This document shows, one piece after another, positions 5,002 to 48,480 of a stretch of DNA of 64,000 nucleotides. The notes under the pieces were generated by a model. It worked only from the letters and a program-made list of their open reading frames with translations, was not told where the DNA came from and did no database searches. Source of the DNA: Craspedostauros australis. Taxonomy: Eukaryota > Bacillariophyta > Bacillariophyceae > Mastogloiales > Achnanthaceae. The translations under genes were made by a program, and so were the position numbers. How positions within the stretch are numbered: position 1 is the stretch's first letter; the number at the start of each line of letters is the position of its first letter. The stretch covers positions 1-64,000 of the forward strand of contig JAMXDE010000067.1 in the NCBI GenBank assembly GCA_026770025.1. Direction: 5' to 3'.

Positions 5002-5460
5002 TGTTGGAAATCCGGGGTAACCCAGCCTTATTAGTTATATCTGATTACCTATTCCTGTTGTTGCATTCTCAGAACTGTGAGCATAACATCTTCAGCTCTT
5101 CCAATTCCATTTGCCATAGCATGTATAATCCACAGTAACATCATGTCATACTGTTGCCTTCATGCTGTCTTCATGCTGTCTTCATCATGCATTCTCGCCT
5201 GTATTCATCGATCCTTTCATCAGGCATCTCCATCATGCATCTCATCATGCATATCATCATCTACATTCATGCGGTACGATTCCACAGCAAGACACGGGAA
5301 TTTCGCTGAAACTCGATGCCGTTTGCGTTCGACCACATGGACTAATCCCCCAATGCCCCAAACGAAATCTGGGTGGACTCAATGGACCACCATTGAATTT
5401 GTAGTTTAACGCATTTAACGTCTTTTGGTTTGAATACCGAACACCTTCCAACGAACACAA

Positions 5461-5676
5461 GTTCGATGAAAGTACCACCAGTTCGATGAAAGTACCACCA
5501 GTTCGATGAAAGTACCATCACTTCGATGAAAGTACCACCAGTTCGATGAAAGTACCACCTGTTCGATGAAAGTACCACCAGTTCGATGAAACTACGACCA
5601 GTTCGATGAAACTAAGACCAGTTCGATGAAAGTACCAATAGTCCGACAAAGGTCCTACGAGTCCGATGAAAGCGGA
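5461..5676 (+). repeat. Left subterminal 20-bp tandem array of element 1
   Basis: Eleven units in exact 20-bp register with consensus GTTCGATGAAAGTACCACCA; the last two are diverged. Each contains TTCGATGAA, a TTC-NNN-GAA half-palindrome. The array begins 173 bp from the left element end. There are no unique spacers, so it is not CRISPR-like. Confidence 0.92.
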
Positions 5677-6696
5677 CACTCTGCAACGCACGCCACAACG
5701 GTTCAAGAAACCAACTCGTGTCCAAACAGCCGTTCTGTTGCAACAAGACCCAATGACAACAACAAGAGCCCGAAACCCCGTGCCAATCTGTGTCGCTCCA
5801 CATCACAGAGGAAGAACTCAGCAATCAGCCAACCAATTGGCACACCAACATTCACCAAAAAGAGGAAGCAAAGGCAGCAGGGAATTTGGAGTGTTCCAGA
5901 CAGAATTTCAGTGCAGTGGAAAGAGCGCAGCCTGCGGCGTGGGATAATGGTGAACGTGTGACGATCGGCAGACGCGACGGGTGTGCATTGTGTGTGCACT
6001 CTGACTGTCTCAGCAGACGCAGCGGGCAGGAGAATTTGCCGCCGCTCCGTCCGTCATCAGACCGTCGACCAACGCGGAAATTCACGAACCACCCAATTTC
6101 CACCAACCAGTTTATTTTGTGCTCCATCGCGACTCAAAACGTCGAAATGTCCACGCGACATTCCATGGACACGGAGATTTCGCATCGACCTCCAAGGCTA
6201 GTGTATAAATGTAGACCACCTGTTTCACACAGGAAAAGTACAAGCCACATCATACATGTTTATCATACTTGTAGCATTGTGACATTAACAAGTTCCTATC
6301 AACGCACATTGTCAAATGAAGGGATAAATGCCTACTTCAGTTGTAGATATGTGCATCATCCATCTGTTTGCTCCAATTCTGTACATCGTGGATCGTATTC
6401 TGACTAAACTTCCATAGGAAAGGATAAAATATTACACTTTAACAAGAATAGTGCATCCCAAGCATTCCAATGGGTATACTGCCAGCTAGCAAGTGTATTT
6501 ATCCATCTGGAAGAGATACTGATATCCAAATCTATGAACCTCGTCATACTCAGTGCAACGCTCGACGCTGCACAATCTTCTGCATGTCTACGCATTCCTC
6601 AGGCCATATTGTGAAATCCGACTGGCGGCACCACTCCAATCACACTCCAATGAGTATGGCCATTGAGTTTGAAGTCCTTGATTTGCCTGGAAGGGA

Positions 6697-7478
6697 TGTT
6701 GGCAAGTTCCGCACACGGATGGCCTTGGCATTGCTGACGATGGTGTTGGTTGTTGCAATACTCTCGTTAGTTCATTCCGTTGCTACTCCGATACTCTTGG
6801 TGTCTCTTCGATGCTCTTGAAATCTCTTGTCTACCCGATGCTCTCAGTGGTTCGTCTGTCTGACTATGAGCTGGCACGTGAGATGCTCTCTTGCTGTTAC
6901 TCATATTCTCTCTCTATGCTGATATTGCATGTTAGTACCATGCATGATAGCGTGTATTCGACACAATCTTGATCTTCCTCCTTCTACTAGTCCACTACTT
7001 CACATGTAGTAGTCAGTGCCATGCATTCTCTGCACCTTGCACCTTTCACGATCACCATGATACTTCAATCATAAGATTCCTACCTTCTGTTCTGATTCCG
7101 AACCAGCTGTCAGTTCGAATGGCATGGACTTTGGAGTCAACGTCAGTCATCGTCATTCTATGGATGTGCTGATTCCATATTCCATTGATGATGCTGTAGG
7201 AGTATCAGGTTGGTGTCATTTGAGGTTTAGTTGGGAAGCATACCAATCCAGCATCGATATCATAGGTTTCTGGATGAGTGGGTAGATCGAACATCTGATA
7301 CTCTCAGATTTCCTGTCTCACGTCTGTCCGACGTTGGGCACAAAAGTGGCGTGCATAATTTTGGTTCGTGATTCACACAACCGTTGATGGCCAATGATGC
7401 AAATGTCAATGCTGCTCAGCGCGCACGGGGTGAGAGAACAATGAGTGAGCGATGCACATACACATATACATCCCAACA
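6697..7478 (-). mobile_element. Old solo LTR of the A/B Copia family
   Basis: This is the reverse complement of a diverged A/B-family LTR: it starts TGTTGGCAAGTTCCG and ends with the counterpart of the family's LTR start at 7478. Its 782 bp compare with 788-793 bp for the LTRs of copies A and B. AAGGGA at 6691-6696 and 7479-7484 is the target duplication. Similarity to A and B is much lower than A to B, so it is an old insertion reduced to one LTR by recombination. It interrupts one of the modules of element 1, so it came after that element. Confidence 0.85.
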
Positions 7479-8740
7479 AAGGGATCTAATTCTACTGATG
7501 CTGATATCCTGCAGTACTGAAACATACGCATCATGCTGCTCAGAGTCCTGAGCAGATGTGCATATAAAATGTCAATCATATTCAATGTAGCACCTTGGCG
7601 CGTCCAAACGCACTCCATGGAGGGCAGTCATGGAGTTTGAAGCTGCACACCTGCTAGCAAGGTGCATCAACATGCCCTCAGGTGAACCTCATGTTACGAC
7701 GCTGCTGAGTGCTGCTTGATATCAGAATCAGTAGAATTAGATCTCTTCCAAATGGACCAAGAGCTTCAAACTCCACGGCCATAGCCATTGAAGTCTACTT
7801 GGAGTGTTCAGCAGTCGCATGTCTCAAGGCAGCCAACCAAAGGCATAAATGTGTGGAATACTGCTCAAGGCGATGCCTACTGTAGAGATGCGTCCCAGGC
7901 AGTACTGCGTGAAACAGCATCTGTAAGAATGGATCCCATACAGATGGACCTTGCATTTCCACCACCATTTGCGTACTCTTTAGATTGCATGCGGAGTGAC
8001 TGAAGTGCTTGTGTGGAGTATATTTGGTGTTGTCTATGCACATATGCTCAGAACACTGTACAACGTGAGGCGTATCTATCAGCCCCACGTGATATGAGCA
8101 TCCATGAAATTGGATCCCTTCCTGACGGATCTAGGGGCTTCCAACTCCATGCCCGTATTCTGTGATGTATGGTTGGAGTGGTTGTAGCGTTGGATCAGAA
8201 TACAATGGACAGTTCCTATGCGCAAATATCCAAATCACTGCCCAGTGCGACATGTACTGTTTTGTACTGCGTGATATCAGCATCTGTAGAATTAGATCCC
8301 TTCCAAATGGAGCTAAGACTTCAAACTCCATGACTGTACTCTTTGGAGCGTGTTTGGAGCTAGGCAGTTGATCATATCTCTCAAAACAGCCTGCTAAATG
8401 CATAGATATGCGTAATGCAGTACAGAGTCAAGCGTACCGCACAGTATGCCGAGGTTCATAGATTTGGATACCAGGATTCCTTCCAGATGGATCCAGATAC
8501 TTGGAAACCACCTCCATATCCATTGAAGCACTTTCACTATGACGAGGTTGGTAGAATTGCAGACGTTGGATCTTTCATATGAAGGTTTGGTCAAAACCCT
8601 GCATACCGCACAGAGTCGCCGTGCGGTATCATGTGATTTGATTGCGTACAATGTGCAACATCTTCTAGATGGATCCAGTCACTCGCAAGCTGGTAGTATA
8701 ACCATTGGAATGATCTCAATGTTCTGATCTTGTTTAGATG
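7479..8740 (+). repeat. Degenerate tandem modules of about 185 bp inside element 1
   Basis: A box resembling TTAGATCCCTTCCAAATGGA followed by TTCAAACTCCATG recurs near 7740, 7935, 8120, 8290, 8480 and 8665 (spacing 170-195 bp). Reverse-complement copies lie near 6490, 6670 and 7630. A related box appears in the foldback at 19707-20807, so the two share a module family. No coding frame. Confidence 0.7.
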
Positions 8741-9194
8741 GAATATGTTTATGCTTTTCAATGAAGACTTGGTCAGAATACAATCCACAACGCACAGAAT
8801 TGGAGCAAACAGGTGAATGATGCACATATCTACAACTATAGTAGGCATTCATTCCTATCATTAGATGATGTATGTTCATATGTACTGGTTAATGTTGCCA
8901 GCATGACAAACATGTATGATGTGGCTAGTACTTTTCCTGTGTGACACAGGTGGTCTACATTTATATTCTTGCCTTGGAGGTCGATGTGAAATCTCTGTGT
9001 CCATGAGATGTCACTCACACGTTTTGTGCAACTGAGTTCTGTGAAAATCGACTGGTTGGTGGAATTCGGGACTTCAAAAGGGCTGGTTCGTGGATTTCCT
9101 CGTGAACCAACAGAATAACACGACTCACAGCTTCGCACAAAATTGGTTGGTGGCGTTTCGACGAAAGTATGCACGCGCCAATGATGGTCGCAAC

Positions 9195-9356
9195 CATTCG
9201 ATGAAAGTAACACAGGCTCGATGAAAGTAATGTCACTTCGATGAAAGTAGTGTCACTTCGATGAAAGTAACACCACTTCGATGAAAGTAACACCACTTCG
9301 ATGAAAGTAACAGGACTTCGATGAAAGTAACAACACTTCGATGAAAGTAACAATAC
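9195..9356 (+). repeat. Right subterminal 20-bp tandem array of element 1
   Basis: Eight units in 20-bp register with consensus CTTCGATGAAAGTAACACCA, ending 159 bp from the right element end. The orientation is the same as in the left array, whereas the terminal inverted repeats and the inner arms are inverted. Confidence 0.92.
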
Positions 9357-9881
9357 TACGCGTAACGTCTATAACGTCTATTTAACGTCGTGACGCACAG
9401 GCTTGGTGTCCCCGTCCGGCTCATTGGGGTTTGACGTGGTTGTGAATGGGACCGGACTGATTGGAGTCTTGCGCGCGTGGTCTCCGCGAACTTTCGGCGA
9501 AATTCCCGTGTCTTGCAGTCATGCGTTTCTCTCTTGGTCTCCTGACACCATTTCTTACGATTGGTGTCAAGCTTGATGTCCTTTCTGAATTGTTCTAGTC
9601 CGTGAGTGGCATGTGTTTCGGTTCTCCTGATGGGGTGGTCACAGACCTGCTGGTCATCGATGTTTCTCCTGTGACGTCGTTGTTTGGATTTTCTTGTTAG
9701 AGGAGGACAGGCTTGTTTTCTTGTCAAGACTGAGATCAGTCACGTTCGTCTTGAGTCATGGGTGTGATCAACAAGACTCAAAGGTGTGATCAACAGGAGT
9801 TGATTTCAGTCGTGATTGATAATTTTGGGAGGTGCGGCAATCATGGGTATCTTGACAAAGTCGTACCCCCGATTCCTGACA

Positions 9882-9996
9882 CCCTTCCATTGTCGCATCG
9901 ACAACATATCATTCTGACTTCATACTCCCTTGACTCTCATCACCAATACTTCTCTCTCTCTCTCTCTCTCTTTTATCACCTTTACTTCTCTCTCTC
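9882..9996. other. Polypyrimidine spacer between G LTR and G pol
   Basis: Contains CT dinucleotide runs at 9951-9972 and near 9986-9998. On the minus strand these are polypurine and lie immediately before the LTR, where a Copia polypurine tract is expected. Confidence 0.5.
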
Positions 9997-11854
9997 TCAC
10001 ACCATCGTCATCAATCCATTGCTAACCGCAATCAGATGATGTGGCCCTTGTGTCTTCAACCCGATGTTGTTCATCAGTTGATTCTGGAAGCGGATCTCAT
10101 TTCCAGCCTCCGATAGTGCGACGTGCTCTGCCTCCGTTGAGCTGAGTGTCACACTGTGCTGTGCCCTCGATCTCCAAATGATCGGCACTCCTTGTAGTAG
10201 GACGATATGTCCTCTCATGCTGATGCGATTGTCCTTGTCACCACCGAATTCGTTGTTGGTGTAGATCACAACCTTTCATGCATCGTTCTCCAATGGACTT
10301 GGCTTCATCCGTAGTCCATATTCTTTCCTGTGTCCGACATGCACTTCATGATCCTCAGAATTTCCTTGTATGCTGCGGCAGTTGGCTCCATCCAACACCT
10401 TGGTCAGTCCGTGCACTGCGTTGGCGATGTTGGGTTGCGAGTGCTTCATTTGATATAGCAGCATACCTTCTCCACTTCAGTATCTGCTGTGTTGGTCTCT
10501 GTCCTCCTTGGGCGAATCGCTATCCCTTGTTGGATGCCTTGCCCTGGTGTTCCTGGTGTACCATACCATTGCAGTTTTATCACGTCGCGGTTGGATACGA
10601 TCTCGCAGCTGATGTGGTCTTCCAGATCATCCTCCACCTTGATACCGAACCGCTCTGCTTTGATATCTTCCATGAGTTTCTTCAACTCCTGTTCATCCTT
10701 GATGCATAGGCAGTCGTCGACATGGGTTCTGATCAATCGCAGTCTCCCTTCTTTGATTCCGAATCAGAAGGCATGGATCAACTCGGCTTGGTCCGAATCC
10801 CAATTCGAGTAGGATGTCGACCAGCTTCTTCCATTGTCTTGCCCTTTGCACGAGTCCGTTGATCGTCTTCTGGATGGTTGCCATGGTTGGTGCGGTATCG
10901 GGACCTCCTGATCCGCCATAGGTGTCGTCCTTGTGTTACTGGAGGACAGGCTATCCTCCTCGCGGTAGTACAGGTGTTAATCACGTCCGTACCCTTAGTC
11001 ATAGTCATAATGACATGGCATATAAAGGTGTGACAAATAGTCTCCGAACATGTGACGAATAGTATTCAAAGCTGTGACGAATAATGTTGGGAGGTGCGGC
11101 AATCACGGGTGTTCCGACAAAGTCGTACCCTCGATTCCTAACATGCTCCATGCCCTTCCGGCAAAGCATGTAGACCTCCTCTTCGAGATCTCCATGTAGA
11201 AATTCTGTCTCAAGGTTGATAGTGGTGCTGTCCAATGTTCAGTAGCATCTTCATTGTGAGCATTCTGCGGTAGGTTGCGTCATGCATCATGGGTGTGTTG
11301 CGTTGAGGAGTCGACTCCTGCGATCTGTGAGTATCCGCATGCAATGAGTCTGGCGATGAATACGCTGTTCCTCTTCTCCTTGAATACCCCCTTTTTCTTC
11401 ACGCATCGCCGATCTCTCGGCATCTCACTCTTCTTGATCTTCTGCCAGACTCCTCGTCTGACCATGTCATAGAACTCCTTATTGATGGCATCTCGCCATT
11501 TCTTTTGCTTCGCTGGATCCGCATGATCCCAGCATTCTTCGAATGTAGTGGGGTCCAGCATCATAGCCATGTATGCATGCTCGGACGTCTCATCCCTTCT
11601 CTCGTGGTTGCTGGGGTCTTCTCAGATACCTCAGCCGACTCACCATCTCCACTGCTTGAATCTGAGTAGGAGTGGTGTTCTGGCATGTTGTTGTGCGGTG
11701 CCAAGCCGCGTATCATCCGTGGCATCCTCGCCACTGGTCTCATGGGATAGTACTCGAGGTTCGTGCCTTCAGCAGGTTGCCTCTGAGTCACTCGTACTTC
11801 GTCCCTTCCGCTAGTCAGGATCCACATGATCTTATCATTCCTTAGGCGCATATA
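9997..11854 (-). mobile_element. Copia element G: pol remains (reverse transcriptase and RNase H), broken
   Basis: Minus-strand sequence matching the 3' part of a Ty1/copia polyprotein. Going down in coordinate it covers the acidic linker after integrase, the start of reverse transcriptase (ARLIACGYSQIAGVD, INLETEFLHGDLEEEVYM), the LVQRARQWKKL region, and RNase H ending near 9997 (TLSSTEAEHVALSEA). It is a fossil with several breaks, and an LTR fragment of its own family is inserted within it. The 5' half is absent: copy A's LTR begins directly at 11855. It is most like the A/B family but distinct. Confidence 0.85.
10920..11143 (-). mobile_element. LTR fragment of the G family nested in G pol
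   Basis: On the minus strand it begins TGTTAGGAATCGAGGG at 11143 and matches the G LTR start at 9881, then becomes diverged but alignable to the shared GCCTGTCCTCC box. Reverse transcriptase similarity resumes on the low-coordinate side. It is a partial LTR of about 220 bp. I could not find a convincing target duplication. Confidence 0.7.
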
Positions 11855-12645
11855 TGTCGAGATGTACATGTGAGTATATGTCAAGATGTACGTGTATATG
11901 TGCATCGTTCACCCGTTATTCTCTCATACGCACTTGGACGGTATAACTATACTCGTGTCGATAGTATGCTGTGATTCGTCAGAATTACAGAGGAAACGGA
12001 ACACACAAAAAGGGGCAAGATTTCTGGAGGAAATTTGCAAATAACGATTTCTGAGAGAATCAGAAGATCGTCCGTCCATGCATCAATGGTACCAAGAGAA
12101 TCTCGAGGTACTTTCCAACTAAACCTCAGATGACGATATCATCTGACAGACTACTGCATCACCAATGGAACGTGACATCTGGAGAGCAGAAGGACGCCTA
12201 CTGACGTCGACAGGATGTCAGCATGTCACCACGTCGACAGCTGTCTCCAAGTCAGAGCAGGAGGCGAAGATCCGATGACCCATGAAGATCATGGATACTG
12301 AAGGTGAACTTCAAATGGTAAGTACTCATGGAGTAGAAGCCAGTACTGAATGAACAGAGTGTCGAATGCGGAGTACGCATCAAACACGGAGGATCGTGTA
12401 GCACGAGCACACGATGGTGAGAGAGAGAGAGAGAATACAGAGAGGAGCGAGAGAGGATCTCGCGTACCGACTCATAGTCGGAGACCGAATCTACGAAACA
12501 GATTGAAGCGCCGAGAGCATCGGGCAAGAGAACGAACGGACACCGAGAGTATCGGAGTGCCAACGTAATGAAATAGCAAACAGACGACTATCAACCAACA
12601 CCATCTTCCACGATCGTAGGTTACCGTGAGCGGAACTTGCCAACA
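11855..12645 (+). repeat. 5' LTR of Copia A
   Basis: 791 bp, starting TGTCGAGATGTACATG and ending GAACTTGCCAACA. Contains a GA dinucleotide run near 12418-12432. The coding region starts 82 bp downstream. Confidence 0.93.
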
Positions 12646-12727
12646 CGTTTATAAACGATAGATCAGGGCGAGCCCGCGGATCGTATCGTGCGAGGAAGAC
12701 GAACATCATTCAAGAGCAGCAGGCTGA

Positions 12728-15700
12728 ATGAGCGAGGAAGAGGAATTGAAAGACATCCCTCTGTCCAATCCGACTATCAAGAGAGAAGAAGGTGCGAGTG
12801 AGACTCCACCACGACAAGAGAAGGAAGCAGCCGCGGCTACTGTCCTATCAGGCGCAGACGCAAGCGCGATCGACGAGACCAAAGAAGAACGGTCTGCAAG
12901 ACTACATCGTAAGGAGAAGAGGATTCTCAAGGCGATCAAGCAAGAGGAGACTGGTGTGACGAAGAGCATTCGCACAGCCAAACAGGGTGGGAAAAGTGAG
13001 ACACCACCAGGAGGAGAATTTGTGACGAAAACAATCTCCGCGCAACAACAGGCGAAAATCGAAGAATCGACAACACAGAAACAAACGGAAACCAAGGGCG
13101 CGAGCGCACCAACGACGAAACAACGAATCAACATGGCGACATCAGCCAACGTGAACAAGCGACGCATCAAGGCGCCGATGTTCAGCGGTGAACAGGAAGA
13201 CTACAGCGCATGGGAGTCCCAAGCGAAGGCATACGCTCGTGCACAGAAGACGAGAGACGTGATGTTGGGCAAGACCAAGGTGCCAACAGTGAGAGAGATC
13301 GCGGCAGCCACCGATGAAGACAAGGAAGCGATGGAGGAGATCTACGAGCTGGGATGCGACTGCTTCAGCGATCTGATCCTCATGATGGATGCAGAGAAAG
13401 GAAAAGGCAAGCAGGCCATCCAGTACATCAACCAATGCATCTCCGACGACTACCCTGAAGGAGACGCACACGCAGCGTGGAACGTTCTCGCGGAGAAGTT
13501 CCGACCATCCGATGCGGTGACGAAGATCAAACTCAAGCGCCAATTCAACAACGAAAAGATGAAGAGAGACACGGACCCCGACATCTACATCACGCAACTC
13601 GAGAGTCTACGATCGCGTCTCCACGATGTCAAATACGAGATCACGGACGAGGAAATGATCATGCAGATTCTCAGCACGGTGAGCAACGAATACAGAACTC
13701 ACATCGTGAACTTCCAACACCAACTCACGTTCAATCCGGAACTGGTTACCATCAACACGATCAGAGGAGTACTCCGCACTGCATACGCCACTCACAGAGG
13801 AGGCAAAGCATACGTCGACGACTTCCAAGACAGTAACACGAAGAGCAACGACACCGGCTTCACAAGCACCGGTAACTTCAAGGGTACTTGTCACAACTGT
13901 GGCGTGTATGGCCATAGATCCGCCGATTGCCCAGAACGCAAGAAACCGAACAACAAGAAAAACAACAACAACAACAACAAGATGAACGGAAAGCGCAACA
14001 AGGGAAGCGGCTTCAAGGGCAAGTGCAACTACTGTGGCATCTTCGGACATCGCGAGGCGGAGTGCCGAAAGAAGAAGTTCAACGAGAAGAAGAAGGCCGA
14101 CGAACAGGCCAACACAGCAACGCAAGGACACGACAAGAGCGGGCACGAGATGGTACTCTCTGCGAAGGACATGCCACTCTGCATGTTGGTGTCCGACGAC
14201 TACATCGAAGACTCCTTCTTCGATAACTTCGAATACGTCGGGAGTGACGACGAAGTACAGGATGATGAGATCATCCCGGAGTGGCTCAGCGAGGAGCCAA
14301 TCATCCACGAGGTGGATCCAAGACGCGAAGTGAGCTACGAATGCTGCTTCAACGCGCACGACCTGATCGGTTCATACGGCGACGAAGCTGAGATGGACGA
14401 TGAGGCCAACAATAGCGACATCGAAGAGGCCATGAGCGATGACGACGACGACGCCGACGAGGACGGCGCAGATGAAGACGATGAGGCGGACCGCGGCGCG
14501 GCGCCTCCTCCTCCAGTGGCGGGGAACAACAGATCGGGCATCTTCGACGAGGATGACAGCGACGAATCCGAGGACGGCAATCATCCAGACGACAGCTTCA
14601 ATCCAAACGAGCGTGTCGTGTACCCAGGGAATATCGACTTCCCACCAATCGAGGATCCCAACAGGTCCAACTACCTCCATCGTCATGACACCATCCCATA
14701 TGCAACAGAAACAGCATTGGTGATCCAGAAGCAACTCATCTTCGATACAGTGATGGAAGCAGGAGTGAGCCTGTTCCCAGGAATCGAACGAGGAGTACTC
14801 AGACCGATATGGGTCAACATGATGGGATCCATCCTATCCGAGAACTTCAGATCGATTGAAGAGATTCTCGCCAATTCAGTTGTGATCAATCGCATACTGG
14901 AAGCAGCCGAGACAGAGACAATCCCAGAGACGGATCTTCATTACATCCTTGGAGGATGTATGCGCGTACTCTTACGCGAACGACCACGGGTCCATCCATA
15001 CGATCCAGCCACAGGATCTCATTGGAACAGTACGATTCCATCGGACTACGCGCAATTACCCGATGACATGGATGACGGAGATCATCATCCTCCATACAAC
15101 GAAGATGGAGTCCACGAAGACAATGATGACGGCAGCTTCAACGACGAGATAGCTGCGGCAGCTGTGGAGCAACTCCACGAGCTGAGCACCAAGTACAAGG
15201 ACAAGGTCAACAAGGACACCTGGCTCGCCGACAGCGGAGCTTCGTGTCACATCGTCAATTCAGACGCCGCTCTCTTCAACGTACGGCATATCAAGTCCTT
15301 CGTCCAAGTGGGAGACAGCACGAAGCTGGATTCTCCCAAGATGGGGTCCATTCGCTTGAAGATCAAGCAGCGAGACAACACTGGCCACATCATCCGGCTC
15401 GATGACGTGAAGTACACACCGAAAATGGCGGTGAACCTTTTCTCCACGAACAAGGCTCTGTACAACGGTTACAAGCTTGGTAACAACGGCATTCTGATGG
15501 ACATCATCAACAGATCCGGAATGAAGATCGTATTCGACCGAGTCTTCCCCACATCCAGCGGATTCATCACGGGAGTGCAGATGCATCCCATCATGCCAAC
15601 AGACGATGACAAAGCTTGTACAGCTATCGTCAAGAATCCATCCAAGGAGATCAGCGCGGTGAACCTGCACCGAATGCTCGGCCACGCGCCACTCGAGACC

Positions 15701-18898: not shown

Positions 18899-18918
18899 CC
18901 GAATGCACACAGGAAGGG

Positions 18919-33934: not shown

Positions 33935-33958
33935 ATGTCCGGGACACGCTTTGGGGAG

Positions 33959-34580: not shown

Positions 34581-34585
34581 GTGCA

Positions 34586-35044: not shown

Positions 35045-35139
35045 TCCAATTGGCTGTCGTTCATTTCAATAATGTGCACTTTTGATAGTGCCATACATAA
35101 TCAACTGTTACTATGTCCTAGTTACATCGCGTTCGTGGC

Positions 35140-35475
35140 GCATGTGATGGTGTTGCAAATGATGGCGTCGCTGATGATATCGTCACAAATGATAGCGTCA
35201 CAAATGATAGCGTCGCAAATGATGGCATCACTGATGATGGCATTGCTGATGATGGAGTCACTGATGATGGCATCGCTGATGATGGCGTTGCTGATGATGG
35301 CGTCGCTGATAATAACGTTGCAAATGATGGAGTCGCTGATGATGGTGTTGCTGATGATGGCGTTGCAAATGATGGTGTCACTGATGATGGCGTTGCTGAT
35401 GATGGCGTTTCAAATGATGGAGTCGCTGATGAGGGCGTTGCAAATGATGGCGTTGCAAATTATGATGATGGTATG
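35140..35475 (+). repeat. 15-bp minisatellite (GATGATGGCGTTGCT)
   Basis: Imperfect units of 15 bp with consensus GATGATGGCGTTGCT or GCAAATGATGGCGTC. All registers are largely open: one reads as Met-rich, another as Asp-Gly-Val-Ala repeats, and the other strand as Thr-Pro-Ser repeats. None has a convincing start or neighbouring domain, so I treat it as a non-coding array near the right side of the Harbinger-like element. Confidence 0.85.
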
Positions 35476-36143
35476 CGAAGAGGGGCGCGCGTGTTTCAAT
35501 CCGCACTTGATCGGCGCAGGCTGTCATTTTGTGTTGCAACGGGGATGAGGATGATTACATGGATAGCAAAGGACAGAGGATTCCAGCTTCAAATCTGCAC
35601 AAAATTGTTGCATTCCGCCAGCCATCGATTGCACAAGCAGCCGATGTTGTGACGATGTTGATGGCAGTGGTGGCAATGGTGGTGGCCGTGACCATGGCCA
35701 TCAAGAGAATAAGTTGGCGTGTTGCGCGCGGATGATGCTGCTAATGACGATGGGGAGTACCATGGACTGGTTGGAGGAATGCGCGTGCCCTCCTCCGCGC
35801 ATCTTGGAAAGCATGAACCGGACGTTCACAGGCATGGCGGCGAGGATGATGAGGATGACGACGATGAATTAGAATTGCACACAAGCAGTTCGCGCCGCAG
35901 ATACCATCGTATGTGTGCACGAAGGATGCGATTGGATGTTCAGGCTGAACATGGGCAGAGAAGACGTCGCAACCGGCTTGTTGTTGTTTTGTTTGTTTTC
36001 GCGCCATCTGCCCGCGATTTTGTGGCAGCCGTACCAACAGACGCAACGAAGGACGCGCGGAGAAACACGATCCTTTCGACCACGAAAATTGGGTCGAACC
36101 GTTCGCATCGACGCTAATCTAAAAAAGAAACAAGGCAAACTCA
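35476..36143. other. Spacer before Copia B, no gene supported
   Basis: A frame of about 130 codons (35719-36117, plus) is rich in Asp, Glu and Arg and has no recognisable domain. The region is not related to Copia D, which lies on the far side of copy B, so the two flanks of B do not belong together. Confidence 0.5.
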
Positions 36144-36936
36144 TGTCGAGATGTACATGTGAGTATATGTCAAGATGTACGTGTATATGTGCATCGTTCA
36201 CCCGCTATTCTCTCATACGCACTTGGACGGTATAACTATACTCGTGTCGATAGTATACTGTGATTCGTCAGAATTACAGGGGAAATGGAACACACGAAAA
36301 GGGGCAAGATTTCTGGAAGAAATTTGCAAATAACGATTTCTGAGAGAATCAGAAGATCGTCCGTCCATGCATCAATGGTACCAAGAGAATCTCGAGGTAC
36401 TTCCCAACTAAACCTCAGATGACGATATCATCTGACAGACTACTGCATCACCAATGGAACGTGACATCTGGAGAGCAGAAGGACGCCTACTGACGTCGAC
36501 AGGATGTCAACATGTCACCACGTCGACAGCTGTCTCCAAGTCAGAGCAGGAGGCGAAGATACGATGACCCATGAAGATCATGGATACTGAAGGTGAACTT
36601 CAAATGGTAAGTACTCATGGAGTAGAAGCCAGTACTGAATGAACGGAGTGTCGGATGCGGAGCACGCATCGAACACGGAGTATCGTGTAGCATGAACACA
36701 CGATGGTGAGAGAGAGAGAGAGAGAATACAGAGAGGAGCGAGAGAGGATCTCGCGTACCGACTCATAGTCGGAGACCGAATCTACGAAACAGATTGAAGC
36801 GCCGAGAGCATCGGGCAAGAGAACGAACGGACACCGAGAGTATCGGAGTGCCAACGTAATGAAATAGCAAACAGACGACTATCAACCAACACCATCTTCC
36901 ACGATCGTAAGTTACCGTGAGCGGAACTTGCCAACA
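36144..36936 (+). repeat. 5' LTR of Copia B
   Basis: 793 bp, starting TGTCGAGATG and ending GCCAACA. Very close to the LTRs of copy A. Confidence 0.93.
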
Positions 36937-37018
36937 CGTTTATAAACGATAGATCAGGGCGAGCCCGCGAATCGTATCGTGCGAGGAAGACGAACATCAT
37001 TCAAGAGCAGCAGGCTGA

Positions 37019-40000: not shown

Positions 40001-42571
40001 CCATACGCGGATGCACTCCGCGCATTTGGAGAGGTGGGTGTTGTGAAGACTACCTACGGCGGGATCACCGCCAAGCTCAAGAACAGAGGAGAAGAGATGG
40101 TGTTCATTGGATATGCACACCAACATGCATCAGGGGTCTACAACATGTACAGACCATCGACCAAGTCACTGATCTGCTCACGCGATATCAAGTGGCTCAA
40201 CCAATCGTACGGACAGTTCCGTGGCTGGGAACCAGCACCGAACATATCCAATGAAACAGGAACAACGGACGCAGACGGCTTCACAACCATTGGACGGAAG
40301 GGAGCAACGCCAAGGACGGCAGCGCGTCAGACACCGGAAGCGAAGAGAGTATCTTTCGCTGACAACAACCGGTACTACATCCTATCGGACAGCAACGATG
40401 AGGATGATGAGGATGACGGAGTAGTGACTCAACTAATCCATAACGACGAGGAAGATCGGAGCGAATCCAATCATGAGGATGACGAGATCCTACCATCCGG
40501 CGACGAAGCCGATGATGACACAGGCATCACCCCTCCGAATACACCAGCGAGGTCTACACATGACACACTATCCAGACCTCCACCGAGCAAACCAAGCAAG
40601 CGTGACATAGCTAGAAAGGAGAGGATCCGACGTCACAAAGCACAAGGCAGGAAGGGAGAAGCTAATCCCAAGTCAACTGCAGGGAAGAGTATTCCCAGAG
40701 CTCTGCGTGAGCTTGCAGACTTCAACGAACGAGGTCGAAAGGAAGAAGGCTATGAGAGCGAACCATCATCCGATGAGGCGAGCGACGAACTCAGCGACGA
40801 GATGATCGATGATTCCAACAACGAAACTACAGATGATGAAGAAATCATGGATGAAGGAGAGATCGAGATCACTCACCATAGTACAACAGGATTGTACAGG
40901 ATGAATGCAATCATCACCGAGAGACCAGCGATCGATATCGGATTATCGATGCAGGACGAGAACAAGGAACCAGAGAAGCACATCGAACCTACAACGTTCG
41001 ACGGAGCCTTCAATCACCCAGATCCCATCCATCGAAAGGGATATCGAGCAGCCATCAAGAAGGAGTTCGACTCCATGGATACACGCAAAGTATTCAGCAA
41101 GATCAAACGAGACGCCATCCCACGCGGCCGCAGATGCTGCAAATGCAAATGGGTCTTCAAGCTGAAGCGTGACGGCACACATCGAGCGCGGCTCGTTGCA
41201 TGTGGCTATTCACAAGTCGCAGGAGTAGACTTTCAAGAGCATTACTCACCCGTCATCCATGACGTGACCTATCGGGTCATGATGGTGATCATGCTGATCA
41301 AGAAGATGGACTGCGCACTCGTCGATGTCGTAACGGCATTCCTACATGGAGACCTCGACGAGGAGATCTACATGAACTGTCCCAACGGGATGGATCATCA
41401 ACCAGACGAAGCCCTGACCCTACACAAGCCAATCTACGGACTTGTGCAGAGCGCCAGGCAATGGTTCAAGATGTTGGTATCAACCCTCAAGAATATCAAC
41501 TTCGAACAGAGCGCAGCAGACCCATGCCTGTTCTACAGGAAGACGAACGAAGGAAGCATGATCGTGGCCATCTACATGGACGATTGCTTCTGTTGCGGAG
41601 ACTCCAAGGCACTGGAGACATTCCTGAAGGACATCCAAGGCAGCAAATTCAAGGTGACAATCGAGCGCGGACTCGGAGACTACCTCAGCTGCAACATCGA
41701 ACTGAACCATGACAAGACTAGAGCGACATTGCGTCAACCACACCTCATCCGACACCTCATCGAAGAGTTTGGAACCAAGGTTGAGAAGATGCAACGCTAT
41801 GGGACACCGGGAACCCCGGGTCAAATCATCGTACGACCATCCGAAGATAACGGACTGCAGAAGGTCAGACCGGAAGAACATGCCGAATACCGCCGAGGCG
41901 TCGGTATGTTACTCTTCCTCATCAAGCACTCGCGATCAGACATCGCGAACCCTGTGAGGGAACTCTCCAAGGTATTGATTGGGCCCACCAAGGCCGCAAT
42001 GAAGGAGATGTATCGGATCATCAAGTATGTGATCGATACAAAGGACTATGGATTGAAGATCCATCCAGCGCGTCCAGACGACGACGGCTGGGACATGGAG
42101 CTCTTCTGCAATAGCGAATATGCAGGAGACAAGAACACGAGAATCAGCGTAGGAGGGTTCATCCTATACCTGTGCAAGGTACCAATCCTTTGGCAATCCA
42201 AGGCACAGAAGGCCGTCACACTCAGCTCATCCAAAGTAGAATACGTTGCCCTTTCCAAAGCGGCAAAGGAAATCTTCTTCGTCATGCAGCTACTCGAAAG
42301 TGTGAGCGTCCCAGTGAAGACACCGATCAAGGTCCGTGTGGACAACATCAGAGCGATCTTCATCGCCAAGAACCCATCAACATCCCAACAATCGCGGCAC
42401 ATCGACGTGCGCCATCACTACGTGAGGAATATGGTAATCAACAAAACCATCGAAATCATTTTCGTCAAATCCGAGCAGAACACAAGCGACGGATTCACCA
42501 AGAACATCAAGGCCGACTTGCAACGTGAACACGAGAAGTCGTACCTTGACACATCGAGAACATTCGAATGA
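37019..42571 (+). pseudogene. Copia B gag-pol region (fossil)
   Basis: Same parts and order as copy A: gag with two CCHC knuckles, acidic linker, protease, integrase, second acidic linker, reverse transcriptase, RNase H, ending in the same TFE-stop shortly before the 3' LTR. Broken in about two places; not a working gene. Confidence 0.92.
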
Positions 42572-42591
42572 CCGAATGCACACAGGAAGGG

Positions 42592-42926
42592 TGTCGAGAT
42601 GTACATGTGAGTATATGTCGAGATGTACGTGTATATGTGCATCGTTCACCCGCTATTCTCTCATACGCACTTGGACGGTATAACTACACTCGTGTCGATA
42701 GTATGCTGTGATTCGTCAGAATTACAGGGGAAATGGAACACACGAAAAGGGGCAAGATTTCTGGAGGAAATTTGCAAATAACGATTTCTGAGAGAATTGG
42801 AAGATCGTCCATCCATCCATCAATGGTACCAAGCGAATCTCGAGGTACTTCCCAACTAAACCTCAGATGACAATATCATCTGACAGACTGCTGCATCACC
42901 AATGGAACATGACATCTGGAGAGCAG
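42592..42926 (+). repeat. 3' LTR of Copia B, first part
   Basis: First 335 bp of the LTR, ending GAGAGCAG; the CAG at 42924-42926 is the left copy of the target duplication of element 2. The LTR resumes at 48481. Confidence 0.93.
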
Positions 42927-43072
42927 GGACACTCGGCAGAAAGTCGGGATTCCATTCAACCTATCATACGTTAAGTAATTTAGTATCATGACATTATCCT
43001 TCAGTCATTAAAAGTTGCTGCGTTTGGCGTCAATTACTCCCTTTACAAAACCTTGAGTCGCAACAGAGAAAC

Positions 43073-43212
43073 TCCCGACATTCCCGACAAAGCACCCGAC
43101 ATTCCCGACAACGCACCCGACATTCCCGACAAAGCACCCGACATTCCCGACAAGACACCCGACATTCCCGACAAAGCGCCCGACATTCCCGACATTCCCG
43201 ACATTACCGACA
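43073..43212 (+). repeat. Left subterminal 21-bp tandem array of element 2
   Basis: Units of CATTCCCGACAAAGCACCCGA with variants AACGC and AAGAC at the middle, in exact 21-bp register, then short CATTCCCGA units. Begins 146 bp from the left end. The frame that reads IPDKAPD repeats runs on into a microsatellite and is not convincing as a protein. Confidence 0.93.
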
Positions 43213-43502
43213 AAACGCTCAATACTCGTCACAAGGCAGTCGGCGTGTTTGAGTACCTTTGCCCATCTGCTCGTGCTCGCTTGTTGGATAACGTTGATAG
43301 AGTGTGTCCCAGTGCGATCCATCAGTTGTACCCAGAACACACACCAGACACCACTCAAAGCGCTGAGGCTATTTGGATCGTTACAGTGCGTTCATTGGTT
43401 CTACCGTGGGGATTCGGACAATCAAGGGACAACCTTTTCCATTTGATGACACAACAACACCCCATTTCGCCTCGTGCCATTTTGCCTCACATCATTTCGC
43501 CT

Positions 43503-43592
43503 CACATCACATCACATCACATCACACCACACCACACCACACCACACCACACCACACCACACCACACCACATCACACAACATCACACAACAT
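43503..43592 (+). repeat. Pentanucleotide microsatellite (CACAT/CACAC)
   Basis: Runs of ACATC and ACACC units, within element 2 and about 100 bp beyond the stop of the 174-residue ORF. Confidence 0.9.
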
Positions 43593-43694
43593 CGCACGAA
43601 AAAAGACAACTTATTGAGCCTGTTCTTTGTTTTGCTGATTGGTATTGAACTATAATAGGTTAATCTGGAGAGTGTTGCTTGATGGTCATTCGAC

Positions 43695-44219
43695 TCACTT
43701 GGAGCTCTTCTTCTTCGATGCTTGTTGGATCGCGAGGTAATGAATAAACTTCTGATGGCGGACCTCCTGATAAATTCGATGGCGAAACACGTCCTTGTTA
43801 AACTGCATGTACTCCTTGCGTGTCTTTTGGAACTCGGAAGGTGGCAGTTGAGTGTGTCGGTTGTTCTTGACATCATCAGCAAGCAGTGCCTTTGCCTCAG
43901 ACATGTCGAATACTGGCTGTCCCATGTTGTTGGTTGATGCTCTTGGATGCATTGCACGATCACGTTCAAGCGCTCTGCGTTCCAAGCACGATCTTACATG
44001 CCGCTCGCTGGCTTTCTTCTTGTAGTCATTGTATCGTGCTTTGAATTGACCAAACACCACACCAGCAAATTCAGGCGTGTCGCGATAGACCTCGAATGCA
44101 ACCTCAGCAGGATACTCTTTGTTGTACAATACTCCACCGGGTTCCAAATCCTCCATTAGGATTGCCCGCGCTGGGCTCTTCCTCCAATCGATCCAACCAG
44201 GTTGAGTTGACTTTGGCAT
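43695..44219 (-). CDS. Element 2 accessory ORF, 174 residues, unknown function
   Basis: Starts at ATG 44219 in the favourable context ACAATGC. Charged, helical-looking protein without Cys-based motifs or signal peptide: an N-terminal WRKSPARAILMEDLEPGG segment, a central FGQFKARYNDYKKKASERH and a C-terminal FRHRIYQEVRHQKFIHYL followed by KKKSSK. I recall WxxSxAR...QFKARL-type proteins recurring next to DNA transposase genes in marine invertebrates and algae, but I cannot name the family or check this. Head to head with the 404-residue ORF (about 455 bp apart), so a shared promoter is possible. DNA binding is a guess from the charge. Confidence 0.65.
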   Translation of the reverse strand: MPKSTQPGWIDWRKSPARAILMEDLEPGGVLYNKEYPAEVAFEVYRDTPEFAGVVFGQFKARYNDYKKKASERHVRSCLERRALERDRAMHPRASTNNMGQPVFDMSEAKALLADDVKNNRHTQLPPSEFQKTRKEYMQFNKDVFRHRIYQEVRHQKFIHYLAIQQASKKKSSK

Positions 44220-44675
44220 TGTTGGATTTATGACTCATTTGCAGTGGTCCAGACAGGAGGATGTGAGTGGGGCAGATTCGAGCTCTTGTTTCAATCAGCA
44301 TTGTGTGGAAACCTCGTCCTGTTCTTCTACTGTTGAACAGAGTGTAGAATACGAAACGCGAGCTATCGATGCATGGGGGGCAATCACCATGACGTCCATC
44401 ATGAACCACGAAGTTTCTTGAATTGTCATTGTCCATAGTGCCGATCCAATGCTATGTGGTTTGTTGTTGTCTTGTCTATGTAAGAAAGTTCTATGGAGCA
44501 ATGCTGAGGCGGGTCTTGAAGCAATGCTATGTCGTAGCTTTTGCGAAAGCAATGACGATGTCACGGAGGTGATGAGCGTCAACTTTGACATGCATCTAGG
44601 CTGCAGCTCGACCATTTTGCAACTAGACATCGCACAAATTGCATGTTGCATCTAGTAATACATGTAGCGCCAAAC

Positions 44676-45890
44676 ATGACACTCCCTGTTGTCGAAGATG
44701 CTGTGCTCAAACTTTTGCTTCAGGAGATCCAGAACTCCCCGATCCCTCTCAACCTGATCAACCTACGAGAAGTTTGCAACTCCAACCCAACCGTGTACGG
44801 GCTGTCTGGGACAATCAAGCGCAGAGCAGTTCAGAAACGCTTCTCCGACATCCAGAGGCTCACACCGAAAGGATACGAAAAGCTGTTGGCAAGGCTTGGA
44901 ATTGATCCGACCAGCAAGACCAAGATCCACACTCCGGTGACAGCGACTACTGCAACACCAGCGACAACCTCCTCAGCCGCTACCGCCACCTCTGTTGCCG
45001 CCGCTGCTGCCATCATACAAAACACAGACGAAGACGACCTCACCTCCGCATTTAGCCGTCTACGGGTAACTTCGCCACCATCCACAAGGGCGACTCCCAG
45101 CTTCTCTCGCCCCCAACAATCTTGCGACAATTCTCTTCAATCACCTCTACTTCGCCCATACACTACAATGACCGCAAGAGCTCTGTTCACGCCACCTGAT
45201 GCTGTGGACACTGCCAGCATCTCCCCATCCGCGGCAAGTCTCGAATCGCTCGAAACGCTCGTCCAAGAGCAGCAAGGAACACGCAATCGCCCATTCATCA
45301 CGATGGTCAGTGTGGACCATCCTGAGCGCAACCGTGAGTTCAACGTGCAACACGTGTCTGGCATCAACCACAATGACCACACGTTGAACGCTTTCCATAT
45401 TTCCAAATCCATCCCGCCACCAGACTTCAATGAATGGAAAGCAACAATCCCAGCAACCGAAGCAGAGTTGGCAGGCCGTGTCATCCAAATTGAGGGCCCT
45501 TCTGTTGACTTCTGGACCCGTGATCGTGAACGGTACCACGAAGACCTGGAGTGCGGTGCCACCAAGCTCGCCCACCAGTCCACACAAGTCGCAATCGACG
45601 AAGCGCAGGGACGCAGCACTTGTTTCTATTGGTTGGTTTTTCCAGATGTTGTCCGTCTTGACAACACTGTGTTCTCCAACAACAACGCGACGCTCAAAGA
45701 AGACCACATCCCACTCGAAGCAGACGCGAACGAGTTCGGATTTGATGACGGCAGTGTGCTGACTGGGTTGATCATTTATTGGAGAATTGGTTTGGATGGT
45801 GGCGTTCGCAACACCAAGGACAAGACTAAAACGACCGCTGGTGGGCTCTTCAAGAAGAAGAAGAGCAAGAAGAAGAAGACGGGCGCTTGA
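44676..45890 (+). CDS. Element 2 accessory ORF, 404 residues, unknown function
   Basis: The frame is open from ATG 44643, but ATG 44676 has the better context (AACATGA) and starts the first ordered segment. Residues 1-85 (MTLPVVEDAVLKLL... to LARLGI) look like a small helical domain with FSDIQRLTPKGYEKLL. A low-complexity Thr/Ala/Ser stretch follows (about 86-190). Residues about 210-380 form a folded-looking domain with QHVSGINHNDHTLNAFHIS, DFWTRDRERYHEDLE and FYWLVFPDVVRLDN; the C terminus is a Lys-rich tail (KKKKSKKKKTGA), a likely nuclear signal. I do not recognise the family. Its place between the other element 2 genes makes it a transposon-encoded partner rather than a host gene. Confidence 0.7.
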   Translation: MTLPVVEDAVLKLLLQEIQNSPIPLNLINLREVCNSNPTVYGLSGTIKRRAVQKRFSDIQRLTPKGYEKLLARLGIDPTSKTKIHTPVTATTATPATTSSAATATSVAAAAAIIQNTDEDDLTSAFSRLRVTSPPSTRATPSFSRPQQSCDNSLQSPLLRPYTTMTARALFTPPDAVDTASISPSAASLESLETLVQEQQGTRNRPFITMVSVDHPERNREFNVQHVSGINHNDHTLNAFHISKSIPPPDFNEWKATIPATEAELAGRVIQIEGPSVDFWTRDRERYHEDLECGATKLAHQSTQVAIDEAQGRSTCFYWLVFPDVVRLDNTVFSNNNATLKEDHIPLEADANEFGFDDGSVLTGLIIYWRIGLDGGVRNTKDKTKTTAGGLFKKKKSKKKKTGA

Positions 45891-46024
45891 TTGCATTCTA
45901 TTTGTTGTGGTTAATTGATAATAAGACTAATTGAGGTTACTTGTGCCTTGTTGAGTGTTGCTGGTTGTCTTTCCATCTGTTTGTTGATTCGCAACGATCG
46001 CACAAGTTCGTTGTGTTCTCTGAT

Positions 46025-46441
46025 TCACTTCTCAAAGTGGACCTTTCTCCATTTCGCCTTGCTGCCGAGACTCTCTTGACGACTGTGAGCAGCCGTCATC
46101 TTGGCGGTCAGGATGGTGCCGACGTCTTCGGTAAATCCACTGATCGAACACTCTGCAAGCATTTTCACCAAGTGGTCAGCTGCTCTCTCGATGTCCTCGT
46201 GCTGTTGGAAAATTGCCTCGCCGTATGTTTCAGGCTTGGTGTGGCGTGGTGCGACGCTCGTCTGGCTGACAATGGTGTGCTTGTGTTTTCCTTGGCCCAA
46301 GTCCACAAACACGTACACTTTCTTCGGTGTTGGCTCTTTGGATGCGTCGAGCCATCCAACCTTCCCTTGGTACTTTCCTGCGCAGAAGCGCACCTCCCTG
46401 CCAAGCTTGGTCTCCGTTTTTGCTGCTGTCACCTTGCTCAT
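46025..46441 (-). CDS. Element 2 accessory ORF, 138 residues, KOW-like N terminus
   Basis: The open frame begins upstream, but ATG 46441 (ACCATGA context) directly precedes the compact domain, so I start there. Residues about 12-50 read LGREVRFCAGKYQGKVGWLD then KKVYVFVDLGQGKHKHTIV, resembling a KOW/SH3-like beta barrel (G-xV-x-G-xx-G-xxG). The rest is helical (AIFQQHEDIERAADHLVKML) and ends in basic residues (KAKWRKVHFEK). A nucleic-acid-binding role is inferred from the KOW resemblance only. It converges on the 404-residue ORF, with about 130 bp between their stops. Confidence 0.65.
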   Translation of the reverse strand: MSKVTAAKTETKLGREVRFCAGKYQGKVGWLDASKEPTPKKVYVFVDLGQGKHKHTIVSQTSVAPRHTKPETYGEAIFQQHEDIERAADHLVKMLAECSISGFTEDVGTILTAKMTAAHSRQESLGSKAKWRKVHFEK

Positions 46442-47064
46442 GGTCGGGTATGTGATACTATGGGGAAGCAATACCAGTATAGAGTGACTCGCGGTTGTTG
46501 GATGAGAGTACCAGCTGTGGTCTGCTGCATTTCGTCGAGCTGAGTCGCGTCGCTGCGAGCTCTTGTTCTTGTCAAGACGGATCAGTCCTGGCAACGTGAT
46601 TGGCGATACTCACATACTAGCAATCGATAGCAGCAACACATGACCTTGTGTGTGGACTTGCGTGTGATGACTAAATCGTCGCCAACTAACGGCCAAGCGG
46701 GTCTACTGTAGAACAAGAAGAACTCAACAACTATGACAACGACTACTACTCTTGTTGTTACTACGACTGCCATCGTGATGGTTCCAACTGCAATTCTGAA
46801 TACGGTTGCAAGGACTGGTACTATGTCGCTAGTCCGACTGTGGCTACTGTTTCTATCGCTGCAACAGCTACTGCTGTTGCTACTGTTACTGATGGTACTG
46901 TTGCTACTGCCGGTGTCATTCGAATGGCGACTGCTGCTGCACTACTGCGACCAGTTCCAAGAACAAGCAAGCGATGGAACACAACAGGAACTGGCTTGAT
47001 TTGCTGCAGCCGATGTTGATCAACCACACTCACAAATCAACAGTTGAGAAGCAACACTCACATC

Positions 47065-47973
47065 ATGTTACTGACCACCACCGACGTCATGACCATTGGT
47101 CTCCAGTACACTGGCCAACAATTTCAGAGCGCCGCATCCATCGACCAACGCACAAAAGCATTCCGTCAACACTACGGGTCTTCACCACTGGACCTGTCAG
47201 AAATGTGGTTTGACATGAATTCAGACTCATTCGATGGTGCCAAGCTCTCAGCCAAAGAGAAGTCACCCTCAGGATTCAAGCTCTTCATGATGGCACACCA
47301 CTTCCTTTGGACATACCAAAAGAACGCGAGCATCCTGGCATCGCGTTTTGGTGTGTGTGAACGATACTGCCGTGGAGAGCCATTGTGGAAATGGATTCGC
47401 CGCATCGCCTCGCTGAAGTCCAAAAAAATTGTCTGGGACCCAGCACTCGACGCGGACAATTCGCCAGTGTTCGCCATCACTGTGGATGGAACAGATTTTC
47501 GCACTTGGGAGAAAAAGCACCCGACGCTCCCCATCGACCGCAAGTACTGTTCCCAAAAATTCAACCACGGAGCAGTGAAGTACGAACTCGCGATGTCGGT
47601 TTTTGGAGCAAAGTGCGTGTGGATCAGTGGGCCACACCGAGGCGGCGAACACGACATGACGATTTTCCGGAGTGGTCTGATGCACAAGCTGAAGCCAGGC
47701 AAACTCGCGATTGCCGACAGAGGGTATGCCACCAGCAGACCACAAGAACGCAAGCTCCTTTCTCTCCCGGACAAAATGGACTGCAAAGAGCTTGCCAAAT
47801 TCAAGAGCAGAGCTCGTTGTCGTCATGAGACGTTCAATGGACGGTTGAAGTTCTTCAACAGTCTTGGCCATACATTCCAACACGGAAGCGAGCTGCATGA
47901 ACATGTGATGGTCGCGGTTTGTGTGATTGTTCAATATCAGATGGACAACGGGTCTGCAATATTCAATGTATAG
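47065..47973 (+). CDS. Element 2 DDE transposase (PIF/Harbinger or ISL2EU/IS4EU-like)
   Basis: 302 residues from ATG 47065. Catalytic residues are all visible: Asp141 in TVDGTD, Asp218 in AIADRGY and Glu255 in RHETFNGRLK, a DD36E arrangement. Family signatures are ISGPHRGGEHDMTIFR between the two Asp and VIVQYQMDNGSAIFNV at the C terminus, close to what I know of DDE_Tnp_4-type proteins of the ISL2EU/IS4EU kind. The N-terminal 100 residues hold a probable DNA-binding helical part (FGVCERYCRGEPLWKWI). Intact and without introns, so element 2 may be, or recently have been, active. It lies about 250 bp from the right array. Confidence 0.88.
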   Translation: MLLTTTDVMTIGLQYTGQQFQSAASIDQRTKAFRQHYGSSPLDLSEMWFDMNSDSFDGAKLSAKEKSPSGFKLFMMAHHFLWTYQKNASILASRFGVCERYCRGEPLWKWIRRIASLKSKKIVWDPALDADNSPVFAITVDGTDFRTWEKKHPTLPIDRKYCSQKFNHGAVKYELAMSVFGAKCVWISGPHRGGEHDMTIFRSGLMHKLKPGKLAIADRGYATSRPQERKLLSLPDKMDCKELAKFKSRARCRHETFNGRLKFFNSLGHTFQHGSELHEHVMVAVCVIVQYQMDNGSAIFNV

Positions 47974-48221
47974 TTGATCAGCAGTAGTAGTTGTGAATTA
48001 AATGGATAGCACCATTACTTATTAATGTAATCAACCCTACTCTACTCTCTCTCATTGAGTCAAGTGCACATCCACAAAATGAGCGCAAGCGTGTCGGTTT
48101 CGCACTCTGTGTGACTGTGTCTGTTGTTACCACGACGCACGTTTTTGTTTTCTTCATTCTTTCGTCTGTCCGTCGCCAGGGGCTGTGCTGAATCAGCTGC
48201 GGGTGTGTGTTGGAGAGAATC

Positions 48222-48351
48222 CTGACATTCCCGACAACGCACCCGACATTCCCGACAAGACACCCGACATTCCCGACAAAGCACCCGACATTCCCGACAA
48301 GACACCCGACATTCCCGACAAAACTCCCGACATTCCCGACATTCCCGACAA
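48222..48351 (+). repeat. Right subterminal 21-bp tandem array of element 2
   Basis: Five full CATTCCCGACAAxxCxCCCGA units and a terminal CATTCCCGA pair, ending 129 bp from the right end. Same unit and same orientation as the left array. Confidence 0.93.
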
Positions 48352-48480
48352 TGACACATGGCAGCATGATACTATCAATTTAGACGTGATGACCAAATAA
48401 ATATCAAACATCACTGAAACTGTCGTTCGTATTTAAGTCATGAGGTTTTGGGGTCATACTCGACATTTTGCCGCGTGTCC

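Follow-up and report, generated by a model that had tools for sequence, protein, structure and literature searches.

Same-direction subterminal arrays and two distinguishable ends in a CWG-target group of PIF/Harbinger-type transposons of Craspedostauros australis

Simple cut-and-paste transposons are usually drawn with mirrored, interchangeable ends. Two elements of the diatom Craspedostauros australis, E1 (5288-9515) and E2 (42927-48480), do not fit this picture: their terminal inverted repeats (TIRs) are inverted, whereas the tandem arrays found just inside them run in one direction. Both lie in positions 1 to 64,000 of contig JAMXDE010000067.1 (assembly GCA_026770025.1), a stretch of 64,000 nucleotides which is called the window hereafter. 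A first-pass annotation considered E1 and E2 as unrelated transposons sharing one architecture, which raises the question of whether this layout is inherited, how general it is and what it means for the two ends. The host genome (90 contigs, 74.8 Mb, the window being contig 65) was searched for further copies. The reading retained here, which we consider on balance probable, is that E1 and E2 belong to one clade of cut-and-paste elements of the PIF/Harbinger-ISL2EU-Spy (PHIS) superfamily with CWG targets, in which the two ends are inequivalent, the polar arrays would be bound by protein, and their direct repetition would permit deletion.

The end adjoining the transposase gene in E2, in L017 (an element of a third lineage, E3) and in L043 (an E1-type element) is designated A and the other end B, the two being told apart by their subterminal sequence. 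E1 has CAG on both flanks (5285-5287 and 9516-9518), and its TIRs (A end, 5288-5306, forward strand, starting CAAGACACGGGAATTTCGC; B end, 9497-9515, reverse strand) begin with CAAG and are perfect over 19 bp, with 24 of 30 bases identical. Its arrays, both on the forward strand and recovered by Tandem Repeats Finder with a 20-bp period, are made of units with the core TTCGATGAAAGTA: nine units at the A end (5456-5637) and eight tandem units at the B end (9197-9357), with another at 9157. The first unit is 175 bp from the A end and 167 bp from the B end. Between TIR and array, two or three TAACG motifs per end were also seen (5405-5422, TTTAACGCATTTAACGTC; 9363-9389, TAACGTCTATAACGTCTATTTAACGTC), by eye on the same strand at both ends, and similar motifs occur in the related subfamily E1b.

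E2 starts with GGACAC at 42927 and finishes with GTGTCC at 48480, between two copies of CAG (42924-42926 and 48481-48483). Its TIRs (B end, 42927-42948, forward strand, GGACACTCGGCAGAAAGTCGGG; A end, 48453-48480, reverse strand, reading inward GGACACGCGGCAAAATGTCGAGTATGAC) are identical at 19 of 30 bases and perfect over 6 bp only. Arrays of 21-bp units with CATTCCCGACAAAG are found at 43074-43216 (B end, first unit 148 bp from the end) and 48224-48341 (A end, 132 bp), both on the forward strand (Tandem Repeats Finder, 21-bp period); as delimited among the parts of E2, the A array runs to 48351. They are 94% identical over 138 bp, and each finishes in a 9-bp truncated unit. Insertion with duplication of CAG is confirmed by three empty sites: the three other copies of the carrier repeat that were followed through the insertion point are all continuous (...GGAGAGCAGAAGGA...), with a single CAG and no element. 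The boundaries, flanks and arrays given by the first-pass annotation were thus recovered, and the single strand of the arrays in each element was borne out; its short TIRs stand for E1, and for E2 over the perfect 6 bp. It had also placed both elements in long terminal repeats (LTRs). For E2 this is supported by the empty sites and by the 200 bases on its left, which belong to a repeat family with the LTR-like habit of occurring in pairs (several, with a spacing of about 7 kb); for E1 it is supported by the right flank, a repeat likewise found in several pairs, with a spacing of 6-7 kb.

Copies of several families were found in the genome. The E1 TIR (at most 2 mismatches) occurs at 62 places, against none for the reversed-pattern control, and two E1-type elements of 6.4-6.5 kb carry genes (L043 and L044); E1b has the TIR CAAGGCACGGGAATTCCGC and the unit ACGTTGAAAGTACTCAACAA. 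E2 has 8 copies including that of the window, with transposase genes at least 98% identical. E3 was reached through relatives of the E2 transposase and includes L016, L017, L020 and many short copies; its TIRs (GGACACCCGGCAAAAAGC at A, GGACACCCGGCAAAATGG or ...AAGG at B) start with GGACAC like those of E2, its units are of the type AATGACGGATAAATAAATCG, and its exact end pattern occurs 84 times (control, 0). One non-autonomous E3 element (L020:4929-6626) is inserted within the transposase gene of another.

Array direction was tabulated for 31 elements, namely 28 with two arrays (10 E1, 3 E1b, 5 E2 and 10 E3) and 3 solo-array elements, which are uninformative on direction. The E1 rows are 10 of the 12 pairs with at most 1 TIR mismatch (C49 and C45:55416-56617 were left out), the E1b-type rows 3 of 6 pairs, and the E3 rows 10 of the 33 exact pairs, two being solo forms chosen for shortness, plus L056, L062 and C4b. 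Outside the table stand the E2 copies L011, L012 and L014 (left TIR not found), the degraded L025 and the one-ended L019, L026, L030, L035, L067, L068 and L071. In 28 of 28 two-array copies the A and B arrays share one strand, with no exception and no mixed array, and the units, read inward, have one sense at A and the opposite sense at B. The architecture that E1 and E2 had been said to share is therefore found across all two-array copies tabulated, and its recurrence is not chance; the orientation test set by the first-pass annotation, for which inverted arrays in other copies would have been a refutation, came out in its favour. The distance from the end to the first unit is 175-176 bp (A) and 167-168 bp (B) in E1, 176 and 163-164 bp in E1b, 132 bp (A) and 148 bp (B) in E2, and 264-265 and 261 or 281 bp in E3, where the one outlier (260) is in a solo form. 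Both arrays are present even in two-array copies of 1.2-1.7 kb, a length that cannot accommodate the gene set. Outside the table, C49 has one recognisable A-end unit and six units at the other end, on the same strand; L011 and L012 have a same-strand left array, and no left array was found in L014. The single ends of L067, L068 and L071 (E1-type subfamilies) have, by eye, the expected sense with diverged units.

The 3-bp flanks are identical in 29 of the 31 elements: 28 matched CAG or CTG and one matched CCG (L054), so that the reported CAG duplication is more exactly a CWG duplication. L056 and L060 are flanked by CTG at one end and by CAG at the opposite end, which could result from mutation or from exchange between two elements via their arrays. 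In copy C2, both flanks are CAG when read on one strand.

The inequivalence of the ends, which the first-pass annotation had proposed, follows in E1 and E2 from direct arrays combined with inverted TIRs, and is also apparent in E3 from the pairing of ends. The 84 exact E3 ends form 33 pairs, all of them A+B, and leave 18 ends single (the longest pair spans 10.9 kb and is possibly not a single element); A-A and B-B combinations are thus absent or rare among exact pairs, without being proven immobile, since the copies share ancestry. Some pair lengths differ by steps of 20 bp, that is one unit (1301, 1321, 1361 and 1381; 1638 and 1658), and others do not. Three short E3-type elements have a solo array: L054 (697 bp), L055 (677 bp) and L056 (658 bp), chosen for shortness. 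Positions 1-436 of L054 resemble the A half of L058 (97.7%) and positions 252-697 its B half (94.0%), the overlap being the array; L055 is colinear with C40 (A half 92.9%, B half 90.4%), with the overlap again in the array, and L056 is more distant from the halves of two-array elements (78-79%). On these alignments, the solo arrays look like products of deletion from one direct array to the other, whether through recombination or through gap repair. The E1 TIR pairs, the shortest of which is about 1.16 kb, showed no solo form.

Constraint on the units was evaluated by position. In E1 (76 A units, 94 B units), the consensus base reaches 88-100% at the 13 core positions, a range somewhat inflated by the selection of units with at most 2 core mismatches, and 77-97% (A) or 42-89% (B) at the 7 spacer positions; the spacer consensus is CCACCAG at A vs ATACCAC at B, and the core is identical at both ends. 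Such a nearly constant core between variable spacers is what binding sites would be expected to show. In each of 10 two-array E3 elements, A and B agree in their commonest unit variant (GACGGAT, GACGGCT or GACGTCT), and one or two odd units occur in the arrays of some elements. The TIR has an inner motif, some 15 bases from the end, that is similar to the unit in E1 (TTCGCTGAAAC or TTCGCCGAAAG vs TTCGATGAAAG) and at the A end of E2 (TGTCGAGTATG vs TGTCGGGAATG). By shuffling, p is 0.027-0.045 at four E1 ends (tests not independent of one another), 0.0025 and 0.0095 in E2, and 0.01-0.08 at the single ends of L067, L068 and L071. At either end of E1 and E2, the TIR motif is in the A sense; array and motif therefore point the same way at A and opposite ways at B. 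This relation of TIR motif to array polarity is suggestive, in two of three lineages.

The description of E1 and E2 as unrelated was not upheld. The E2 transposase (302 aa, 47065-47973, forward strand) matches the Pfam family DDE_Tnp_4, of PIF/Harbinger type, with 38.5 bits (cut-off 24.8), and the transposases of L017, L018 and L043 match it with 46-53 bits. Compared with the E2 transposase, those of E3 and of L018-type relatives show about 59-62% identity, and that of the E1-type L043 shows 37% over 187 residues (E about 1e-36). The small E2 protein (174 aa, 43695-44219, reverse strand) has counterparts in L017, with 38% identity, and in L043, with 25% (E about 1e-6). Since the transposases and the small proteins are homologous, E1 and E2 are, on protein comparison, best placed as distant members of one clade, and one inherited architecture explains their resemblance better than convergence. 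The clade belongs to the PIF/Harbinger (PHIS) superfamily. The common CAG duplication is likely a trait of the clade and not a coincidence, since a 5'-CWG-3' target duplication is defining for the NuwaI group of PHIS (PMC4482050).

The mechanism proposed from these observations is the following. The short TIR at each end would be cleaved by the DDE transposase. At 130-280 bp from each end, a tandem array of 20-21-bp sites would present all of its sites on the same side of the DNA, since 20-21 bp is about two turns, and would most likely be bound cooperatively by an element-encoded protein. Protein binding appears the most economical reading of sites that are repeated, phased, constrained and near-fixed in distance from the cleavage ends. 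The binder may be the transposase itself or the small helical protein, which would then parallel the Myb-like protein of Harbinger3_DR and is a candidate in view of its helical model and of where it stands among the genes. Copies too short for genes must depend on proteins provided in trans, yet they retain the arrays. Homology between the direct arrays would also permit deletion to a solo-array element that keeps both ends. As for the role of direction, for which the first-pass annotation had suggested ordered end recognition as an example, it is possible, but tentative, that the direct arrays act as a polarity signal: the direction of the protein lattice relative to the TIR would differ between A and B, only the A-B synapse would be productive, and the arrays would in addition allow the interior to be shed.

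Several observations weigh against parts of this proposal. All copies may inherit one ancestral orientation, in which case the 28 copies represent far fewer independent observations. The resemblance of TIR and unit is weak in E1b (p 0.16-0.26) and not significant at any of six E3 ends; in L067 and L071 the unit fits no better in the A sense than reversed (9/11 each; reversed p 0.012 and 0.016), and in L019 the resemblance is borderline in the reverse sense only (p 0.05). The small open reading frames (ORFs) of E2 and L017 have no match in Pfam at E<=1, and fold comparison of the helical model gave no convincing match, so that DNA binding by the small protein is putative; the sole Pfam match of the small ORF of L044 is unrelated and sub-threshold. 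Lastly, the lineage L021-L024 carries the same genes, yet examination of five A ends and one B end yielded no 20-bp tandem array. Scattered AAAATGG motifs occur there instead (2-4 in A sense and none reversed in the five A ends; at the single B end, that of L066, 1 vs 1 reversed for AAAATGG and 1 vs 3 reversed for AAAATG), and tandem arrays are therefore not essential for every member. Possibly, this is the array layout in a looser form. At the A end, L026 has a short repeat of period 20 (2.3 copies) and L019 an array of 10/20 bp.

The arrays could also be a historical relic. One ancestral array would have been divided when the element gained its interior, or recombination or gap repair would have copied it to the other side; both arrays would then persist and homogenise through slippage and conversion, with a direction that has no role. 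The near-identity of the two E2 arrays (94% over 138 bp) down to their 9-bp truncated end units, the commonest E3 variant common to A and B, the E3 copy lengths 20 bp apart and the solo arrays, whose existence implies that exchange between arrays happens, are all consistent with this account. In E1, by contrast, the spacers differ between A and B while the core is identical, a pattern that favours selection on the core over simple copying. Also against a relic are the position of the arrays, fixed relative to each end within families, and a layout kept across families with 37-62% identical transposases. We regard a relic without role as a somewhat unlikely, though serious, explanation.

A regulatory function outside the transposition complex (promoter, enhancer or silencing target) is a further alternative, a direct orientation being suited to transcription, and in E2 and L043 the arrays are indeed interposed between an end of the element and the closest conserved gene. 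Copies of 1.2-1.7 kb without room for the gene set nevertheless retain both arrays (three solo elements retain one), and the transposase gene points inward from the A end in E1 but outward in E2 and E3; we consider a purely regulatory role improbable. More improbable still would be ordinary minisatellites expanded by slippage in unremarkable transposons, even if the window holds tandem repeats of many periods: the 20-21-bp period recurs, the offset is near-fixed at both ends, the strand is the same in 28 of 28 copies, and the E1 core is constrained. Genome-wide, a two-unit E2 pattern gave 129 matches (reversed control, 0), and the 100 listed of these make up 29 arrays, each confined to one strand; 13 of 14 neighbouring pairs less than 9 kb apart, among the matches listed, are on the same strand. 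The E2 unit thus occurs genome-wide mostly in same-strand pairs and not as a dispersed minisatellite, the outcome that the first-pass annotation had named as a refutation (E1 and E3 units were not searched in this way). The one opposite-strand pair falls between two separate element-like pairs with a 717-bp gap each. These two short E2-type array pairs (C17:41827-50141) are inverted to each other and 6.6 kb apart.

The clade, with protein-bound polar arrays as the preferred reading, was compared with known systems using the available text of the cited open-access papers. The NuwaI group resembles it by a PIF/Harbinger-kind DDE transposase, CWG duplication, short TIRs and two or more ORFs. NuwaI TIRs usually begin with GGG, which is no absolute criterion, vs GGACAC (E2, E3) or CAAG (E1) here; the majority of NuwaI elements encode a Myb/SANT domain in a second ORF, whereas no Myb/SANT match was found in the small ORFs here and extra ORFs are present (PMC4482050). 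The words "subterminal", "tandem" and "direct repeats" are absent from the main text of that paper. The closest case in that text, the PIF/Harbinger-like MtPH-A6-4 of Medicago truncatula, has subterminal arrays of 60-bp repeats, in opposite orientation when present on both sides, and interior inversions are reported (PMC2213677). As proposed here, the repeats ease internal rearrangement; the present elements differ by units of 20-21 bp, by the same direction in 28 of 28 copies and by solo-array forms. Harbinger3_DR and other two-protein PIF elements share the two-protein system, and in Harbinger3_DR a Myb-like partner protein binds a subterminal 9-bp motif; that partner has a recognised domain, unlike the small protein here, and the available text does not mention tandem same-direction arrays (PMC9710019). 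In Galileo, tandem repeats near the ends likewise hold transposase-binding sites, but it belongs to another superfamily (P) and its repeats are within long inverted repeats (PMC3688188).

Same-direction subterminal arrays are not described in the available text of PMC2213677, PMC2872659, PMC6875170, PMC4423477, PMC9710019, PMC3688188 or PMC4482050, which samples the open-access literature only and is no proof of absence. Against that literature, as far as its available text goes, what is new is the direct layout, together with an A/B polarity that stays fixed from lineage to lineage and with derivatives reduced to a solo array. What are likely binding-site arrays break mirror symmetry consistently in three lineages with diverged transposases, which makes the clade a clean system for asking whether a transposase must distinguish its two ends; deletion between direct subterminal arrays is a suggested route to short non-autonomous elements. 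If the polarity signal is real, it would imply a transpososome with asymmetric ends in a eukaryotic PIF/Harbinger-type element, and array-to-array deletion, if it occurs, would be a built-in shedding of the interior with an outcome comparable to solo LTRs.

Two further proteins of E2 were compared between relatives. One of 415 aa (44643-45890, forward strand) and one of 138 aa (46025-46441, reverse strand), the latter with a weak KOW/uL24-like N-terminal stretch below the curated cut-off, are common to E2, E3 and L018-type elements; the middle ORF of L043, similar in size, has no match to the 415-aa protein. A KOW/uL24-like protein is, to our knowledge, an unusual cargo for a PIF/Harbinger-type element. 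The model of the small E2 protein is all helical, seemingly with two tandem modules. E3 and L018-type elements also have an extra gene near the B end, of about 180-200 aa and seemingly hydrophobic in places (L017:22-555, L016:9015-9626, L018:42-647); that of L017 has no Pfam match.

The interior of the window E1 (6157-9012) consists of nested long inverted repeats with imperfect arms of 230, 122, 109, 105 and 89 bp. No transposase was found in it, and this copy is therefore taken as non-autonomous. The interior has at least 261 matches in the host genome, many of them at 72-84% over the right half only, as if it were common to several families. Elsewhere in the window, tandem repeats overlap open reading frames at 35145-35464 (45/15 bp) and 55161-55448 (36/108 bp), which possibly encode repeat proteins.

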